Below, piece after piece: positions 3,208-16,034 of a DNA stretch of 26,080 nt. The DNA comes from a virus, in IMG/VR virus record IMGVR_UViG_3300026209_000009, positions 1-26,080 of that record. One strand, written 5' to 3'. The position numbers were made by a program, and so were the translations under genes. Position 1 is the first letter of the stretch, and the number at the start of each line of letters is the position of its first letter. The notes beneath the pieces were generated by a model that was not told where the DNA came from, did no database searches, and saw only the letters and a program-made list of their open reading frames with translations.

Positions 3208-4773
3208 ATGGCTACAACACCATTACAACTAAGTAATTGGAACTTAGCTGATGTAGATTCTCCGGGTTCCGCGGGTTCAGACCTAAACACTGGTGTACTT
3301 CGCAGAAAGTATAATTTTGGTGACAGGGTATCCGAACTGGCGATAGCTCAGACCCCTTTCTTTCGATTTTTATCGAAGGTTGGGAAGAATCCTACTGACG
3401 ACCCAAGTTTCAAATTCACGGAAAGACGACCATCTTTCCATAAACGCTATGCCTATGTAGTTGGTTACAACACAACATCAAAACAATTTGGTGATGCTAC
3501 ATTAAAGGAGGCAGGTGGCTCAAGCAACCTTTCTCAAGGTGACGAACTACAGCTTTTTATGGCAGGCGATTACTACCCTCAAGGAAACATTCAAAATGTT
3601 TACGGGCAGGCTAGTGGAGAAATAAAAATTGGAGCAGCAGATACTGCACCAAACTTTTTTCTTAAGAATCAAATAATCAAAATCCCAATTTCGCATACGG
3701 CTGGCGGTGGCGTTCCCAATGATTATGTATTGGCGAGAGTCAGCGCAGTTGCGGCAGCAGCAAACGAAACATATACACCTTCTGGTGGTTCAGAGGGCGC
3801 ACATTCATGTGTGAAAGTCACTGCTAATATTGTTTCTGGCGCAGTCAATGCACCTAAGGCAGAATTAACATCATTCACATCAAACAAACCATATGAAGGT
3901 GTTTATGATAAGTCTATCGCAGGTGCATTAGAAAGCTATCGTACATATGTTGTTGGTAGTGCTTATGGTGAAGGTTCACAACTCGCTAACGAAACATGGA
4001 ATGACCAGCCTTTCTCAACCGGTTATGGGCAAACTCAGATTTGGCGTACTGAATTCGGTATGACAAACACGGCTCGTGCTACAGTATTGAAGTACGAAGC
4101 AAATGAGTGGGCTAGAATCTGGCGTGAAAAACTGATTGAGCATAAATGGGATGTTGAACAATCCTTGCTCTTTGGTTCTCAAGCAAGTGTAGATAGCGTA
4201 GGCTATACTCAAGGTGCAATAGATTTTATTGTGAATAATGGTAACATTTTCTCAATGGATTTAACAACTAAATCTCAGGATGCCTTTCTTGATGATTTAA
4301 GCAACTTGGTAGACCCTCGCTATAATGATTCACAAGCAACTGTGTTCTTCTGTTCAACGGCAGTATACAATTGGCTACATAAACTAAGTGGATACTTTTC
4401 CAACAATGTTGGTATGGTTAATCCAGGAGGGTCAATGACTCCCTCTGCTGATAGTTTAGGTAGAACCGATTTTGCGTTGATGGGAAAATCCAAATCGTTT
4501 GGTGTTGATATTTCAAGAATCAGCACTCTCTATGGCGATATGAATGTTGCTCGTCATGTGATGCTAGATGGAACTGATGTTAAAATGGTTGGTATTAACA
4601 TGAAGCATTGTAAGTATCGTCCACTAGTAGGCAATGGCGTATCCCGTGACACATCAGTTTATGTCGGTGTTCAATCGTTAGAGAACACTGGTACGGATAA
4701 GAGAGTCGATATGATTCTCACCGAAGCTGGTATGGAATGGCAAATGCCTGAAGCACACGCAATCTGGAAGTAG
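3208..4773 (+). CDS. Major capsid protein
   Basis: Predicted coat protein forming the icosahedral shell, 521 residues. It sits directly downstream of the scaffold, with AAGGAGT placed for strong translation, and is followed by a strong terminator, both fitting a highly expressed gene. The N-terminal part contains 'RVSELAIAQTPFFRFLSKVG' and 'DDPSFKFTERRPSF', which I recognise as typical of marine-phage coat proteins with a presumed HK97 fold. The middle, about residues 110-225, is a Gly/Ala/Ser/Thr-rich beta-like insertion. The C-terminal half has mixed helices ('NEWARIWREKLIEHKWDVEQ') and ends in a beta-rich segment with 'VDMILTEAGMEWQMPEAHAIW'. The HK97 fold is inferred, not demonstrated here. 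Confidence 0.88.
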   Translation: MATTPLQLSNWNLADVDSPGSAGSDLNTGVLRRKYNFGDRVSELAIAQTPFFRFLSKVGKNPTDDPSFKFTERRPSFHKRYAYVVGYNTTSKQFGDATLKEAGGSSNLSQGDELQLFMAGDYYPQGNIQNVYGQASGEIKIGAADTAPNFFLKNQIIKIPISHTAGGGVPNDYVLARVSAVAAAANETYTPSGGSEGAHSCVKVTANIVSGAVNAPKAELTSFTSNKPYEGVYDKSIAGALESYRTYVVGSAYGEGSQLANETWNDQPFSTGYGQTQIWRTEFGMTNTARATVLKYEANEWARIWREKLIEHKWDVEQSLLFGSQASVDSVGYTQGAIDFIVNNGNIFSMDLTTKSQDAFLDDLSNLVDPRYNDSQATVFFCSTAVYNWLHKLSGYFSNNVGMVNPGGSMTPSADSLGRTDFALMGKSKSFGVDISRISTLYGDMNVARHVMLDGTDVKMVGINMKHCKYRPLVGNGVSRDTSVYVGVQSLENTGTDKRVDMILTEAGMEWQMPEAHAIWK

Positions 4774-7619: not shown

Positions 7620-7919
7620 ATGGCAAACTTACAAAGCATGGTACTGCAAGAACGAATGAACACCATTAATGGTGATGCTATATGGGCTTATACTTTTCAA
7701 GAAGCTTGCAATAAGTATCTTATAGCAAATATAAGTGGCTATTCGGGGATAGGTATTAATAAATATACACCTGAGGAGGCATTTTCTATTATTAGAGATA
7801 AGTCTGATATTAGGTCACATACTTTAGAAGAATTAATGAATGATATGGGGTCGTATGGATTACATGATTATACGGCTCGTGAATCACTTAACAAGCAAGA
7901 ATCAATAACGGAAGGATAA
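7620..7919 (+). CDS. Small hypothetical protein of the connector region
   Basis: 99 residues, unrecognised. Mostly helical composition with Asn, Glu and Tyr; segments include 'FQEACNKYLIANISGYSGIG' and 'PEEAFSIIRDKSDIRSHTLE'. It lacks a signal peptide or membrane segment. It starts one base after the preceding stop and shares one base with the next gene, so it belongs to the same transcript. No function is proposed. Confidence 0.6.
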   Translation: MANLQSMVLQERMNTINGDAIWAYTFQEACNKYLIANISGYSGIGINKYTPEEAFSIIRDKSDIRSHTLEELMNDMGSYGLHDYTARESLNKQESITEG

Positions 7920-8119
7920 TGTCAACTACTTGGGAAACATCTACTAGTCAGCAAGCAACTACGTTTACAACTGTTGCTGGAGCCTCTAGTGGAGTTTATA
8001 CATTTAATACACCCACTACTACCCCTGTATATACTACAAGTTTTATAAATTTTATAGGTAGTTGGGAAACATTACAAACAATTTGGTCGCAGGTTTCAGA
8101 TGTTTGGGGAGATTTATAA
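7919..8119 (+). CDS. Small Thr/Ser-rich protein
   Basis: 66 residues, over a third Thr or Ser, with aromatic clusters: 'WETSTSQQATTF' near the start and 'WETLQTIWSQVSDVWGDL' at the end. The two 'WET' segments and regular Trp spacing at the C-terminus are distinctive, but I do not recognise the family. It begins in a TAATG junction with the previous gene and ends in another with the next one. Coupled translation and its place just before the fibre genes suggest a small tail- or fibre-associated protein. Confidence 0.55.
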   Translation: MSTTWETSTSQQATTFTTVAGASSGVYTFNTPTTTPVYTTSFINFIGSWETLQTIWSQVSDVWGDL

Positions 8120-8463
8120 TGGCTAGTCTAACAGGTCAAAATGTTAATACATCATATAAAGATTTACTTACAGTAGCTGGTACTACTTCTGGTCAGGGCA
8201 TTGAAAGTTCCCTAAAACAACTTTTTGATGGCAATGGGGATGGCACCGCATTATCATTATCAACTTCCGATATTGGAGTAAGAGGTAATTTCCTCACAGA
8301 CTCAGTAACGGATTTTATCTTCAAGAATAGCTCTGGAACTACACTATTTCAGATAGATAGTGGAGGCGTTATTAAACTAAAAGAACAAACATCTATACCA
8401 AGTGGAATTGAGGGAGGACTATATTATAAAGATAGTGTTCTCTATCTTGGCATAGATGAGTAA
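8119..8463 (+). CDS. Small fibre-associated protein
   Basis: 114 residues from the ATG at 8119, which overlaps the preceding TAA. An in-frame ATG at 8062 would overlap the preceding gene by 58 bases, so 8119 is preferred. The product starts 'MASLTGQNVNTSYKDLLTVA' and continues with 'DGNGDGTALSLSTSDIGVRG', a pattern I associate with proteins and domains next to marine-phage tail fibres. Later it has 'FKNSSGTTLFQIDSGGVI' and 'GGLYYKDSVLYLGIDE', short beta hairpins typical of trimeric fibre shafts. It likely contributes to or caps the receptor-binding appendage; no catalytic motif is present. Confidence 0.65.
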   Translation: MASLTGQNVNTSYKDLLTVAGTTSGQGIESSLKQLFDGNGDGTALSLSTSDIGVRGNFLTDSVTDFIFKNSSGTTLFQIDSGGVIKLKEQTSIPSGIEGGLYYKDSVLYLGIDE

Positions 8464-8479: not shown

Positions 8480-10054
8480 ATGGCTACAGTATGGAAAAGA
8501 GTATTAACTGCTGGGACAGATGCTGGTACCCCATCAGCTATAGATTTAACAAACGCTACAAATATACCAGCAGCTCAACTCACTGGCACGATTGCAGACG
8601 CAAGGATGCCAGATTTAACTGGTGATGTAACAACTTCTGCTGGTGCAGTTGCTACCACGCTAGCAGATAACGTAGTAACACTAGCAAAAATGGCACCAGG
8701 AACAGATGGTAATATTATTAGCTATGATGCAAATGGAGACCCTGTTGCGATTGCTACTGGTTCAGACGGACAAGTATTAACAAGCGCTGGTGCTAATGCA
8801 CAACCAGCTTTTGAAACGCTTTCAGGCTTAGGTGATGTTAATGAATATTCTTTTAAGACTATAGCAGTCGATGGAGAAACTGATGTAGTAGCTGATACTA
8901 CAACAGATACATTAACTTTTGCGGAAGCTGGTGGAATGTCAATAACCACAAGTGGGGACACAATTACATTTACTTCGGCTACAAACGCTGGAGATGTGAC
9001 TGGTATCACAGCTGGAGAAGGTATAACTGGTTCTAGTTTAACTGGTCCCGTGCCCACTATAACATTAGACTTAACTGAATTAGCGGCTGGAACTCAGGAC
9101 TTTGACGGAGACGACGCAATTATATATCTTGATGATGGCACTCAAAAGAAAATGACGGTAGAAGATGTGAATCTTGGGGCATTTAAAAATGACCAAAATT
9201 GGACTTCAAATGCAGGTGATATTACTGCTGTAACTGCTGGTGCAGGATTGTCAGGAGGTGGAACTTCATCGGATGTTACATTAGCCATAGATGTTTCTGA
9301 GTTTAGTGCGGTTACTCCCGCATCAGGCGACTCATTCCTTACATTAGATTCAAACGGTTCTACTGAACAACGTACTACTGTCGATGCTTTAGCAACCCTT
9401 CTTGCAGGAAGTAACCTCTCTGCAACAAATGGGGTGTTAGCTGCTACTAACACAACATATTCTGCTAATCAAGTTATAGATTGGACTGCTAGTGGTGCTG
9501 GGACTATACATACTGATAACTATGTTGAAAATGTATCTACAGCAATTTCTTGGACAAACGGTACTACTGCAGGTCCAACTTTGGTTACTGATGGTAATGA
9601 CGTAGCAATTCCAGCAGCTTCATCTAGTTATTCTGGAGTCATTGTAACTGGTCCTCAAAGTTTACCCGGTAACTTTACAGTAACTGGCGACCTTGCCGTC
9701 AATGGAGATTTTACAGTCTCTGGTACTAACACGGTTATACTTGCTGAAGAACTCAAGGTTGAAGATAATGTAATAGTCCTTAATAGTAATTGGGCGTCTA
9801 ATGCTGCTCCGACTCAAGATGCTGGTATAACCATTGAGAGAGGAACTCTAGATGACGAATCCTTCTTTTGGGATGAATCAAATAATGAATGGGCTATTGG
9901 ACATACTGAATCTAGTAATGTATTTACGGTAGCAGCATCAATGTGTACAGCGAAGCAACAAACATATGATGAGAATCAAACTCATTCACACGGTGCTTTT
10001 GCTATTGGAAGCTTTCAAATTGATGGTAACGATATTTGGATGAGAGTATCATAA
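8480..10054 (+). CDS. Tail fibre protein with 'MATVWKR' N-terminus
   Basis: 524 residues, probably a trimeric receptor-binding fibre. The N-terminus 'MATVWKRVLTAGTDAGTPSA' matches that of the protein starting at 10412 and is probably a virion attachment tag. Residues 30-120 are a Thr/Ala/Gly-rich shaft. Two imperfect repeats follow near residues 170 ('GDVTGITAGEGITG') and 244 ('GDITAVTAGAGLSGGG'). Residues about 400-480 carry 'GDLAVNGDFTVSG', 'VEDNVIVLNS' and 'DAGITIERG', a beta-rich block seen in many marine-phage fibres (from memory). The last 45 residues include 'ENQTHSHGAFAIGSFQIDG'. An extended AAAGGAGT site fixes the start. The exact receptor is unknown. Confidence 0.8.
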   Translation: MATVWKRVLTAGTDAGTPSAIDLTNATNIPAAQLTGTIADARMPDLTGDVTTSAGAVATTLADNVVTLAKMAPGTDGNIISYDANGDPVAIATGSDGQVLTSAGANAQPAFETLSGLGDVNEYSFKTIAVDGETDVVADTTTDTLTFAEAGGMSITTSGDTITFTSATNAGDVTGITAGEGITGSSLTGPVPTITLDLTELAAGTQDFDGDDAIIYLDDGTQKKMTVEDVNLGAFKNDQNWTSNAGDITAVTAGAGLSGGGTSSDVTLAIDVSEFSAVTPASGDSFLTLDSNGSTEQRTTVDALATLLAGSNLSATNGVLAATNTTYSANQVIDWTASGAGTIHTDNYVENVSTAISWTNGTTAGPTLVTDGNDVAIPAASSSYSGVIVTGPQSLPGNFTVTGDLAVNGDFTVSGTNTVILAEELKVEDNVIVLNSNWASNAAPTQDAGITIERGTLDDESFFWDESNNEWAIGHTESSNVFTVAASMCTAKQQTYDENQTHSHGAFAIGSFQIDGNDIWMRVS

Positions 10055-10072
10055 TGGGACACAGGAGGACAT

Positions 10073-10261
10073 ATGAGCAAACTTGGAGAAATAAAGAAAT
10101 TCGGTGAAGAGTCAAAAAAGGAATCTCTTAATGTAAAAGATACAGACTTCATATTAAAACTTATTATGGAGAGTAATTTTTCTGGTTTACAGCTTGAGCA
10201 GGCTTATAAGGTATTAGAAAAAATAACTAACATACATAGGGGGTTTTTAAATGAGACTTAA
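10073..10261 (+). CDS. Small helical protein
   Basis: 62 residues, charged and helical, with 'FILKLIMESNFSGLQLEQAY' and 'KVLEKITNIHRGFL'. I recognise this only as a type of short protein often found between fibre genes in marine phages. A very good AGGAGG at 10063-10068 precedes the ATG by 4 bases. Its 3' end overlaps the next small gene by 11 bases. Function is unknown; an assembly chaperone or regulator of fibre attachment is possible but unsupported. Confidence 0.6.
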   Translation: MSKLGEIKKFGEESKKESLNVKDTDFILKLIMESNFSGLQLEQAYKVLEKITNIHRGFLNET

Positions 10262-10412
10262 TTTTGAATTCAATGAGATAATGCTATTGATATCTGCACT
10301 AGAAGCATCTCAAATATTAGGAAAAGATAGTATTATGGTCGCAAGTACTCTTACAAAATTATATAAAGCAAGGGATAAAGAAGGGCTCCCTGTTAAAGAG
10401 GGTGCTAAATAA
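10251..10412 (+). CDS. Small helical protein, second of a pair
   Basis: 53 residues: 'MRLNFEFNEIMLLISALEAS' followed by 'ILGKDSIMVASTLTKLYKAR' and a charged end. An AGGGGG at 10238-10243 lies 7 bases before the ATG. It overlaps the preceding gene by 11 bases and the next by one (TAATG). Like its neighbour it is short, helical and of similar size, so the two may be distant duplicates, but identity is not obvious by eye. No function is assigned. Confidence 0.55.
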   Translation: MRLNFEFNEIMLLISALEASQILGKDSIMVASTLTKLYKARDKEGLPVKEGAK

Positions 10413-11323
10413 TGGCTACTGTGTGGCAAAGACTTCTAACAACAGAGGATGATGCTAATTATAAGAATGATAGTATAGAAGCTGGTGATGTTCCTGCTCA
10501 CTCTACTGATAAATTAACAAGTGGGACTCTTCCTGTCTCTAGAGGAGGGACTGGTGCAACTTTTGGGTATAATAAAACTAATTGGGATACTGCCTATGGT
10601 TGGGGTAATCACGCAAGTGGTGGATATAGCACAGCAACAGGTGTTGAAAATAATGCTGATGTAACAGATGCGACAAATGTAACGGCAGCAGGTGCATTGA
10701 TGGACTCAGGGTTTGCAAGCCTATCAGATGTTAAGGCAATAAATCAAGGACTCACAACATCTTCTGTTGCTCAATTTAATAGGCTTAATCTTGTTAGTGC
10801 TGAAAATACTATGGTTCATCTGAATAGTAGTGACGCTAATTCTAATATTTATATGGAAGATAGTGTTGGAGGTGCAAGTGTCAATATAAGACAAGATGGT
10901 AATACATATTCTTTAAGAACAGGTGGTTCAGAAAGAGTAAGTACAACATCTACCGCATCTACATTTACAGGAGAAGTTAGAGCAACAAATGAAGTAACTG
11001 CTTATTATGGTTCTGATATTGCTATGAAGAAGAATCTAACTCTAATATCTAACCCTTTAGAAAAAGTACTATCTCTTAGTGGGTATGATTTTAAATGGAA
11101 AGCAAAGGTACTTAGAGATAGAGGTGGAGAAGATGGTTACTATGTTAGAGAAAAGGATGTGGGAATTATTGCTCAAGAAGTAGAAAAAGTTTGTCCTGAA
11201 ATTGTGGCTACTCGTGAAGATGGTCATAAAGCAGTTAAATATGAAAAACTTGTGCCTCTTCTTATTGAGTCTATAAAAGAATTAACTGCTAAAGTTACGA
11301 GGCTCGAAGATGGCAATAGCTAG
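10412..11323 (+). CDS. Tail fibre protein with C-terminal S74 intramolecular chaperone/peptidase
   Basis: 303 residues. It starts 'MATVWQRLLTTEDDANYKND', sharing 'MATVW-R-LT---DA' with the fibre gene at 8480. Next come 'GTLPVSRGGTGAT' and 'WDTAYGWGNHASGGYS' (residues about 57-72), recurrent fibre shaft motifs. Residues 201-303 fit the peptidase S74 chaperone domain: 'SDIAMKKNLTLISNPLEKVL', 'GYDFKWK', 'VGIIAQEVEKVCPEIV', 'KAVKYEKLVPLLIESIKEL' and a final coiled-coil helix. In this family Ser and a Lys five residues later form the self-cleavage dyad. Here they would be Ser201 and Lys206, with release of the roughly 103-residue chaperone after trimer folding. The protein is short for an S74 fibre. 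Confidence 0.88.
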   Translation: MATVWQRLLTTEDDANYKNDSIEAGDVPAHSTDKLTSGTLPVSRGGTGATFGYNKTNWDTAYGWGNHASGGYSTATGVENNADVTDATNVTAAGALMDSGFASLSDVKAINQGLTTSSVAQFNRLNLVSAENTMVHLNSSDANSNIYMEDSVGGASVNIRQDGNTYSLRTGGSERVSTTSTASTFTGEVRATNEVTAYYGSDIAMKKNLTLISNPLEKVLSLSGYDFKWKAKVLRDRGGEDGYYVREKDVGIIAQEVEKVCPEIVATREDGHKAVKYEKLVPLLIESIKELTAKVTRLEDGNS

Positions 11324-12230
11324 TAGTGGTGCAATAGAATTAAGTAGAGGAATTGGAGGAGAGTTAGGTGGTAGTGCTGGTGCTGAAACTGGATTAGAAG
11401 ATGCTGCAACAGGCGGTATAGCTACTATAAATACTGCTTCTTCATCTTATCCAAATGCAGCTGCCCCCCACTTAATGAGTGAATGGTATTCTTATGACCA
11501 CTCAGCAGCACCAGCTGGGTATGGTGGTATCTTTATAGATGACTTTCACACTACGGGTGGTGATGACCCTATGGATGCTCGAATAACCTATGCCACTACA
11601 GGGCTTCAAGATGGTCAGTCATTCCCAACTGATGGAGATGGCAATACAGTTACAACAAGACCAATTTGGACTTATAATCAAAGTGGAAATGGGTGTTCAC
11701 ATTACAATAATGATACACTTAGGTTAACAAATGCTAATTCGAGTCCAAATTGGAGAACTACTAATGTTCCTTCCCATCTTAATTTTAGTGGCACTATGAA
11801 TATTGAGGCTCGATTAAAGATAAGTAGCTCTTCCAATAAAGACATGGTTATATTTATAGATACTATATCTCAGGGCGATGCTTGGTCAGGGTCTGTTTTA
11901 GATGAGGGTTATTTTATACAGTTTGACGATAGTTCATCTGAGTGGGCAATGATTAGGAGAAGAAATTCATTAGGTTCAGGGACAACAACACTTGGGCAGA
12001 GTGCTAATGGTGTTACTACTAAGGGTTCTTGGTTTACCGCAAAATGGACTTGGAACCAATCAACAGGTGCCCACAAATTGTATACTGATGGCAATTTAAT
12101 TTTATCTGTTACTGATACAACTTATGATGATTTCTGTCCAAGTGGGGCAGGTATTAGAATTGCAACATTTAGATATATGTCTAATAATGCGTATAATGAG
12201 TGTGATTGGATAAAGGTTTGGAAATCATAA
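11310..12230 (+). CDS. Lectin-like (concanavalin A/LamG-type) appendage protein
   Basis: 306 residues. The ATG lies inside the 3' end of the S74 fibre gene (14-base overlap). Residues 1-45 are Gly/Ala/Ser-rich ('IASSGAIELSRGIGGELGGS'). From about residue 70 ('GGIFIDDFHTTGG') to the end, the pattern fits a jelly-roll of the ConA/LamG class: 'MNIEARLKISSSSNKDMVIF', 'GYFIQFDDSSSEWAMIRR', 'FTAKWTWNQSTGAHKLYTDG', then 'NECDWIKVWK'. Such domains bind glycans, so a host-receptor-binding or decoration role is inferred. The fold is recognised by pattern only, without a diagnostic catalytic residue. Confidence 0.65.
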   Translation: MAIASSGAIELSRGIGGELGGSAGAETGLEDAATGGIATINTASSSYPNAAAPHLMSEWYSYDHSAAPAGYGGIFIDDFHTTGGDDPMDARITYATTGLQDGQSFPTDGDGNTVTTRPIWTYNQSGNGCSHYNNDTLRLTNANSSPNWRTTNVPSHLNFSGTMNIEARLKISSSSNKDMVIFIDTISQGDAWSGSVLDEGYFIQFDDSSSEWAMIRRRNSLGSGTTTLGQSANGVTTKGSWFTAKWTWNQSTGAHKLYTDGNLILSVTDTTYDDFCPSGAGIRIATFRYMSNNAYNECDWIKVWKS

Positions 12231-13829: not shown

Positions 13830-16034
13830 ATGCCCAAGAATTTTGTTCAATACAATCGGTATGAACGGGGCATAAATACTAGAGTTGATGATACGGATAT
13901 AGACGTTGCTGCTCTCGCAGAGTGTGACGGGTGGGATATTAACACCCCGGGCGAGATATTTACACTAGCAAATAGAGCAGATATAACGGATTTAGAGTTC
14001 AATGTAACAGACCCCGATGATTCTACAACTATTGCTCCAGTAATAAGTGGAAATAGTCAAATTGTAGTACGCTCTGATTATAGTTACGATTCCCCAGCGG
14101 AAGCACAATCTACTGGTAATACTATGTTATTCTTTGCTAATGACGATGGAGATGTAGGTTTGATAACTGATATTGAAGGCACTCCTACTTATAGTGGCAT
14201 TGTTATGGAATCTGCTTCTACTGCTGCTGTTAAACCATCGTTCTTTTGGTTTGAAGGTGCTTTAAGAATGTCTAATCCAGAGCATGATGCAACAATGAAA
14301 CCACAATGGTTTGGAATAATAGATAGAACAAGATTCAGTTCTGGCGATGATAGGAATGTTAAAGATAAAGTATGGACTCAGGAAGCATCTGCTTTAATTG
14401 CTCCTAATTCGGGTGATATAGACCAAACTAATAATGGCAATGGAGTTGTTTATGTAAATGTAACTGGTAATAAATACCCTAATACCGATGGTCATCCCCC
14501 TAATATTATATTGTCTCAATCAGTAGACTCAGAGGACGGACAATGGTCATCTACTAGCTATGAATTTGGAATGAGTTATGTATACGAGGGCAATCAAGAA
14601 AGTACTATAACGTCTATGCTTATTGAAAATGAAAGTGGGTCTCTTGTAAGTGATTATGAACTTAATTTAAGACAATATTTTACTGGCGTTAAGATTTTTG
14701 TTTCAACTGCTGATGGTGCTGATTTTCCTTTAAGACAAACTGGTTGTAGGGTTTATATAAAGAAATCTAATGGAGGCTCAAGGTGGAGATTGTTTTTAGA
14801 TGCTGATTTTAGGAGAGGTATAAGAACTAATACATTTGATAGATTTGATAATGTTTGGACTAGGGCTGGTGATGGTGCATATACCGTAACATCTGCAATA
14901 GAGATGAAAAGTCCATCAATTGAAACATATGAGGGGTTTACTGGTGTTGTTAATGATGAAGTAGCTGTATCATTTCAAGACAATGGACATGGATGGGGAG
15001 ACGCAGAAGCAGTTGGTAGAAGGGTTTTTTATTCTGGGTGTAATTACTATATAGGAGATGGAGGCACTTCGGTTGCACAACTACATGATAGAATATTCTA
15101 TAGTATGGGAGGTAAACCAGATGTAGTTCCACCTACTAATTGGATAGACTTGGGTATCAATGATGGAGATGAATTTATTGCACTAAAGAGTTTTGCAGGT
15201 CGCTTGTTGGCGTTTAAAAGAAATAAGATATATGTTATTAATGTTTCTCATCCTAGTCCAATGGGATGGGCAGTAGAACAGGAAATTGATAACAATGGAG
15301 TACTCACACAATCTGCTGTTATAGGTACAAGATATGGTATCATTTGGGCTAATTCATATGGGTGTTTTCTTTTTTCAGGAAAGCAACCTCAGGAAATATC
15401 TGGTACTATAGGTACGGCTGAATGGAAATCGTTTTTAACTGGTGATATATATATATTAGGTTTTGATACTAAGGTGAATAAATTAGTTGTTTCTACTGCT
15501 AAGTCAGATGGTAATGACACTAGTTTATCTAATACGTGGACTTACAATTTTGAACTTCAAGGATGGCAAAGACACGTAATTGACCTTAGAAATAAAACAA
15601 ATGGTTTTTATAATAAACAAGATGGTAGTTTATGTTATTTTGTACATGATGTTGCTGCTGGAAAATATCGTTCATTTAAAGTGTCTAATAACTTAGGAGG
15701 AGTTGCGTCCTATATACCTCGTAAATTCACATTAAGAGATGATACTTTAAAGATACCGGGTGTTAAGAAAAGATTTTACAGAGTATTAGTTACAATGAAG
15801 AATGAAGCATCGGCTGTTATAGCATTGTATATGAATGATACTTTAGCAGAATCAAAGAGTATAAGTTCAGCTAATGATGATTTTGTAACTAAGATATTTA
15901 CTCCATCAAGTGTTATTGAAACAGATAGTATGCAATTAGAATTTCGTAGTTCAGGCGCAGGTGGTGTTTCTATAAGTAATGTTTTATTAGAATATAGACC
16001 TAAGCGATTAAGACAAGGTGAAGAGGGTGTTTAA
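13830..16034 (+). CDS. Tail nozzle / stabilisation protein (P22 gp10 / T7 gp12-like)
   Basis: 734 residues. Predicted hub or nozzle of the short tail, a beta-propeller-containing ring below the adaptor. The most telling part, residues about 390-520, contains 'HDRIFYSMGGKPDVVPPTNW', 'GDEFIALKSFAGRLLAFKRN' and 'GVLTQSAVIGTRYGIIWANS', matching the recurring pattern of nozzle proteins (interface value, 'LKSF-GRLLAF', then 'G--S--S'). The N-terminus 'YNRYERGINTRVDD' and the C-terminal beta domain ('NVLLEYRPKRLRQGEEG') also fit. It starts immediately after the preceding stop and shares a base with the next gene. Sequence similarity to P22 gp10 itself cannot be measured here. Confidence 0.8.
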   Translation: MPKNFVQYNRYERGINTRVDDTDIDVAALAECDGWDINTPGEIFTLANRADITDLEFNVTDPDDSTTIAPVISGNSQIVVRSDYSYDSPAEAQSTGNTMLFFANDDGDVGLITDIEGTPTYSGIVMESASTAAVKPSFFWFEGALRMSNPEHDATMKPQWFGIIDRTRFSSGDDRNVKDKVWTQEASALIAPNSGDIDQTNNGNGVVYVNVTGNKYPNTDGHPPNIILSQSVDSEDGQWSSTSYEFGMSYVYEGNQESTITSMLIENESGSLVSDYELNLRQYFTGVKIFVSTADGADFPLRQTGCRVYIKKSNGGSRWRLFLDADFRRGIRTNTFDRFDNVWTRAGDGAYTVTSAIEMKSPSIETYEGFTGVVNDEVAVSFQDNGHGWGDAEAVGRRVFYSGCNYYIGDGGTSVAQLHDRIFYSMGGKPDVVPPTNWIDLGINDGDEFIALKSFAGRLLAFKRNKIYVINVSHPSPMGWAVEQEIDNNGVLTQSAVIGTRYGIIWANSYGCFLFSGKQPQEISGTIGTAEWKSFLTGDIYILGFDTKVNKLVVSTAKSDGNDTSLSNTWTYNFELQGWQRHVIDLRNKTNGFYNKQDGSLCYFVHDVAAGKYRSFKVSNNLGGVASYIPRKFTLRDDTLKIPGVKKRFYRVLVTMKNEASAVIALYMNDTLAESKSISSANDDFVTKIFTPSSVIETDSMQLEFRSSGAGGVSISNVLLEYRPKRLRQGEEGV

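Follow-up and report, generated by a model that had tools for sequence, protein, structure and literature searches.

A matched N-terminal tag on two different fibres of an uncultured virus, and a candidate dock for it

Two neighbouring fibre genes in an uncultured virus start almost alike and then encode different proteins, which raises the question of whether both fibres attach to the same kind of site on the virion by way of a common tag. The genes lie in a 26,080-base record of the virus, called the window here when the whole stretch analysed is meant, and the virus is probably a short-tailed virus of bacteria. To our knowledge, the display of two unrelated fibres by one short-tailed phage has been worked out for few systems.

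The shared start of the two fibres

The features of the window used below are:

93-2309: P22-like portal, from a Pfam scan
3208-4773: SU10-type capsid protein, from a Pfam scan
8119..8463, + strand: protein A, 114 aa, with an in-frame ATG at 8119 and the C-terminal end GGLYYKDSVLYLGIDE; candidate adaptor or dock
8480..10054, + strand: F1, the first tagged fibre, an ORF of 524 aa without a Pfam family
8480..8524, + strand: N-terminal tag of F1, MATVWKRVLTAGTDA, with Trp at residue 5
10073..10261, + strand: H, 62 aa, a predicted helical hairpin (helices 21-33 and 39-61)
10251..10412, + strand: h, 53 aa, a distant homologue of H
10412..11323, + strand: F2, the second tagged fibre, 303 aa, with a C-terminal Peptidase_S74
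10412..10456, + strand: N-terminal tag of F2, MATVWQRLLTTEDDA, with Trp at residue 5
11012..11206, + strand: Peptidase_S74 intramolecular chaperone domain, F2 residues 201-265 (PF13884, E 2.6e-12)

The original prediction was that the genes at 8480 and 10412 share their N-terminus and then diverge. Both open reading frames are present as placed, with the common start MATVW-K/Q-R-V/L-LT. BLASTP of F1 against F2 (a single comparison, E = 0.001) aligns residues 1-31, and the similarity stops near residue 31; the remaining segments have E of 4 or worse and none is convincing. Among 325 pairs of N-termini, drawn from the 26 window ORFs taken as genes, F1 and F2 make the best pair, with 8 of the 14 residues after 'MA' in common, and the runners-up have 4 of 14. 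A DNA pattern for MATVW[KQ]R..LT has two matches in the window record and none in the control. In a scan of 2.9 million IMG/VR contigs, from which the window's own record was possibly left out, the same pattern was found on one contig, twice, at the same two genes. Judged by these sequence comparisons, the likeness of the two tags is not chance.

The motif is not diagnostic by itself, as looser patterns match unrelated ORFs in other parts of IMG/VR: MATxWK[KR] was found in at least 120 stretches, where most of the ORFs examined were unrelated, and a pattern with Thr at residue 10 was found in 67, including unrelated families of 102-aa and 357-aa ORFs.

Behind the tags, the window fibres resemble proteins of cultured phages. 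Residues of about 385-496 of F1 are similar to proteins mostly annotated as fibre or structural (tblastn, 15 records), and all 15 of the 15 records match its middle and C-terminal parts; for F2, middle and C-terminal matches are found among those listed (30 of 1236 records), and its S74 match scores 47.3 bits against a cut-off of 22 (PF13884). With the N-terminal 78 aa of F1, no match to a cultured phage starts at residue 1 in any of the 4 records, and with the N-terminal 75 aa of F2 none does among the matches listed (40 of 95 records). Neither fibre matches the Phage_T7_tail anchor of about 140 residues or Mtd_N (PF18454) at a Pfam E of 0.1.

Paired tags among relatives

Further pairs of tagged fibres came early from the looser patterns and from a search with F1 (L004/L102, L020, L120, L156, and L070 with L177). 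Relatives were also sampled independently of the tag, 54 loci through a tail protein and the best 80 of 143 through A, which together make up 114 distinct contigs, with many near copies among them. The window-type tag (W tag) starts exactly two ORFs in 24 of these contigs and one in 9, and more than two in none; all 9 contigs with one tag stop before F2 could be seen. The pattern is not spread through unrelated non-virion proteins in the 114 contigs, since 57 of the 2361 ORFs that are 60 aa or longer on either strand match it, and all 57 are F1 or F2. Across loci the cassette usually runs protein A, F1, F2, and the two small helical proteins, H and h, stand ahead of the fibres or between them. 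For three proteins of these loci no cultured relative was found: tblastn of L120 F1, the L193 tail protein and L193 A gave nothing in 50,697 INPHARED phage records, and the window portal has 6 weak relatives among cultured phages.

A related group of loci, Mtd-like below, has two consecutive fibres that share another N-terminal module. The modules of its first and second fibres are related to each other (hhalign probability 98.0, E 2.2e-13), and at E up to 1, Mtd_N (PF18454) is matched by 4 of the 10 second and 2 of the 12 first fibres tested. As in the window, paired fibres share one module in this group, although the Mtd_N module is longer than the window tag and different from it. When each locus was classed by the nearest two ORFs downstream of A that match a tag, using patterns written by the analyst, 23 were W/W, 54 were Mtd-like/Mtd-like (on 52 contigs, as L300 is L204 and L309 is L207) and none was mixed. 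Among the other loci, 17 have one tag visible (8 W, 9 Mtd-like), 15 have none, and in 7 A was unrecognised; L239, the 24th W/W contig, was missed in the classing as its A was unrecognised.

The bodies of F2 vary behind the tag. They are S74 proteins in the window, L194, L196 and L239, collagen-like in L193 and L200, and in L273 a protein of 1936 aa with laminin-G plus S74. L202 has an F2 of 1955 aa without a Pfam family, with structural and tail-spike matches in PHROG, and further F2 bodies in other loci have no Pfam family. The original prediction was of a common attachment tag to which different bodies have been joined, and it is supported both by this variety and by the pairing of tags in every case where the starts of the two fibres can be seen. 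In L261, L262, L267 and L268, F2 is just 90 aa long, and the tag is kept.

A candidate dock and the helical proteins

We consider it fairly probable, from the sequences, that the two N-termini are docking tags for the same type of socket, with A as the candidate. In the mechanism that we propose, the N-terminal 10-15 residues of F1 and of F2 would be the docking tag, and two different fibres, probably homotrimers, would present the same one. Proteins with an S74 chaperone and collagen-like proteins are generally homotrimers. Each fibre would thus insert three Trp-basic-hydrophobic peptides into one type of socket on the tail, and protein A is the best candidate for this socket or for part of it. 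H and h accompany this type of tag, and could serve as clips or as chaperones of assembly. Behind the tags, the bodies would be free to change, which would give two receptor-binding specificities per particle or per particle population. We infer that the virion contains both fibres and that they contact one and the same protein.

Protein A of the window shares its position and C-terminal motif with its relatives, and the remainder is divergent. In a comparison of 13 W with 13 Mtd-like loci, mean identity is 57% over residues 1-40 of A and 29% from residue 46 on; between W loci the figures are 64% and 43%. The C-terminal ending G.LYY...LY.G, a pattern that was written from the W/W forms, is present in 23 of 23 W/W loci and 0 of 54 Mtd-like loci. 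Protein A is the best candidate for the dock because its gene stands upstream of F1 in those loci that were seen (many of them fetched by A itself) and because its C-terminal half follows the tag type. The W and Mtd-like types may represent one ancient split, in which case the difference in A and the difference in tag may be one event. An AlphaFold model of a relative of A was poor (pLDDT 67). In L221, L223, L230 and L310, longer bodies follow on from A (278, 441-443 and at least 2132 aa), which means that the N-terminal module of A can itself head a longer protein.

H is a member of a family alignment, whose profile it matches at 4e-20 with its own row included, and profile-profile comparison relates H to h with a probability of 91.8 (E 7.4e-07). 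AlphaFold2 predicts a helical hairpin for H, with a mean pLDDT of 78 that rises to about 90 over the hairpin. The model has no PDB match at E 0.001, and the sequence profile of H matches only designed helical repeats and, weakly, PSF2. H or h was found in 36 of 40 tagged loci, and the remaining 4 end inside F1. Among 83 untagged loci one has a match (L242, a contig that ends about 30 bases past H); the profiles were built from tagged loci, and this untagged figure is the only free test.

This distribution bears on an alternative that we hold to be unlikely, namely that an assembly factor (H/h or another chaperone) recognises the tag in folding or delivery, and that the tag is not a point of attachment in the virion. 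Small fibre chaperones are known, and H and h go with W-tagged fibres and are absent from untagged loci save for the one truncated exception; they are related to each other, and many loci have H ahead of F1 and h ahead of F2. However, H and h differ strongly while the tags match, and separate cognate helpers would not require the tags to match. L255, L256, L259-L264, L267 and L268 have two tagged fibres and one H/h match, and the C-terminal half of A, too, differs with the tag class.

Docking by short N-terminal peptides has precedents. The passages of PMC6872550 on K1-5, K1E and SP6 describe two different podovirus receptor-binding proteins (RBPs) that N-terminal peptides, 7 and 11 residues long, fix to a common adaptor; in K1-5 the peptides differ and each has its own site on the adaptor, which is about 300 aa long and has a T4gp10-like domain. 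The window is like these systems, as so described, in having two different fibres, each with a short conserved N-terminal peptide. It is unlike them in that the same co-varying tag is on both fibres and that the candidate adaptor is 114 aa long, with no Pfam match. In the KP34 and KP32 Klebsiella phages, the same passages describe a second RBP with a conserved N-terminus of 7 or 29 residues and diverse bodies (PMC6872550). The short conserved N-terminus followed by diverse bodies is found here too, but in KP34 and KP32 the peptide is on the second RBP and a T7-type anchor is on the first, and no such anchor was matched in F1 or F2. By analogy, the proposed mechanism would resemble docking by peptides in K1-5/SP6 and KP34, the difference being a single tag common to both fibres. 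Among the papers listed by literature text searches, none is on this matched-tag pairing.

In SU10, according to the parts of PMC9509320 that deal with its fibres, a trimeric short fibre is held via its N-terminal residues; the dock offers three Trp in a nozzle loop and the fibre gives Tyr/Ile, and long fibres are on the adaptor and short fibres on the nozzle. Set beside SU10, the window has a SU10-type capsid protein together with a P22-like portal, and the Trp is in the fibre tag here and in the loop of the nozzle dock there.

Branched systems with two RBPs exist as well (PMC6872550), and a branched or serial arrangement, in which one anchored fibre carries the other and the shared tag serves the association of fibre N-termini, is quite improbable here. 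A mutual interaction of that kind would likewise make the tags match. In the branched systems as the cited passages present them, though, an anchor and a branching domain belong to the first protein, and the second carries a peptide of its own (PMC6872550), and no T7-type anchor or T4gp10-like domain was matched in the 10 window proteins scanned against Pfam, F1 and F2 included.

Joint variation of the two tags

If one kind of socket receives both fibres, each tag has to fit it, and a change in the socket calls for a change in both. The two tags of a genome were compared in 22 lineages, with one pair each, chosen by eye; near copies (L006, L195, L201, L247, L259, L261, L264, L267 and L268) were left out of these counts, and contigs that end before F2 were not counted as pairs. 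The position of the Trp is concordant in 22 of 22 lineages, at residue 4 in both fibres in 12 and at residue 5 in both in 10 (exact p 1.5e-6 if the lineages are independent, phylogeny being ignored). The pairs are not phylogenetically independent (L120, L177/L070 and L249 are one clade), and phylogeny limits all such p-values. The matched distance from the N-terminus to the Trp points to the N-terminal end itself as the part that is held.

Past the Trp, at Trp+1 to Trp+6, likeness within genomes exceeds that between genomes (0 of 20000 shuffles as high, 21 pairs). This signal comes from the Trp5 class (0/20000), and the Trp4 class is not significant (1729/20000). A weaker excess of likeness extends beyond the tag, at Trp+13 to Trp+34 (190/20000).

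The class of Trp has also changed within clades. The tree of A has 5 Trp-class changes (bootstrap 4-5), of which the starred branches force only 1, and in the tree of the tail protein with A the starred branches force at least 2 (for L199 and L243, only F1 is known). The portal of L249 is 89% identical to that of L120. L249 has MATWKK in F1 and MASWKR in F2, with Trp at residue 4 in both, and L120, L247 and L070/L177 have Trp at residue 5 in both; by these starts, L249 is a further joint switch of Trp class, inside the L120 clade. The class of F2 in L249 agreed with an expectation formed beforehand from its F1. The claim in the original prediction that both fibres would dock at the same site is supported as far as the kind of dock goes, in that the Trp position shifts jointly in the two tags with no sign of gene conversion. 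Both tags are likely matched to a common partner, and their co-variation points to a common socket in this uncultured lineage.

It is very improbable that shared descent is all there is, with the same inherited N-terminus in both fibres and a lineage structure that mimics co-variation. Few switches have firm support in the trees, as this reading would have it. An old duplication, however, predicts that F1 is no closer to its own F2 than to the F2 of other genomes, and F1 and F2 are identical through the Trp in 15 of 22 pairs, where shuffled pairs give a mean of 3.7 and none of 20000 shuffles is as high; the joint switch in L249 also stands against it.

Recombination finds natural substrates in neighbouring genes whose 5' ends are alike, but it is scarcely credible that gene conversion or a recent re-duplication of the 5' end keeps the tags alike without functional matching, as codon identity is no higher within genomes: shared residues have the same codon in 47 of 112 cases within genomes and 356 of 781 between them, codon usage leads one to expect 0.45, and in L255, where the first 15 residues of F1 and F2 are identical, 2 of the 9 counted codons are. 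Gene conversion of the tags was set aside on this test.

Part of A may also follow the position of the Trp. Seven columns separate Trp4 from Trp5 rows in the tail protein, the intervening gene and A, mostly C-terminal, and the idea that the tail of A matters arose from this exploratory comparison of columns. The tail of A after LYxG has at least 3 residues in 11 of 11 Trp5 lineages and 2 of 13 Trp4 lineages; in lineages that were not used to form the idea, the figures are 7/7 and 2/5 (p 0.045). An acidic residue is present in this tail in 10 of 11 Trp5 and 1 of 13 Trp4 lineages, a feature that was picked after all tails had been viewed, so that only the length idea preceded the other lineages. 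The exceptions are L249 and L263 for length and L192 and L196 for the acidic residue, and the tail is VTE in L120 and LNA in L249. A matching Trp position, possibly with the tail of A, would predict which fibres and docks are partners, and would serve as a simple pairing rule for metagenomes.

A more specific version is possible, and we put it forward tentatively as a rather doubtful one. Both tags, the C-terminal half of A and H/h would be passed on and replaced together as a self-contained, exchangeable docking set, while the N-terminal half of A stays with the tail and the bodies vary, and the tail of A would contact the tag. With the same tags, the two fibres would be rivals for equivalent sockets, which would make the virions mosaic.

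Several other genes near the cassette have starts worth recording. The window gene at 7919 starts with MSTTWETS, and the gene just upstream of A in L210, L213, L229 and other Mtd-like loci starts with MANNWKDG or MANTWRKG, which are like the W tag to about Trp+2 but have Gly at Trp+3. At 13830-16034 the window encodes a protein of 734 aa that weakly matches phrog_511 (E 3.7e-05). It may be the nozzle and thus another candidate for the dock, a guess from its position and start. A third fibre-like gene, at 11310-12230 of the window, starts with MAIASSGAIELS. Similar 'SSG' or 'ASG' starts are found in the post-fibre genes of several loci of both tag groups, which suggests a separate N-terminal family that is unchanged when the tag changes.
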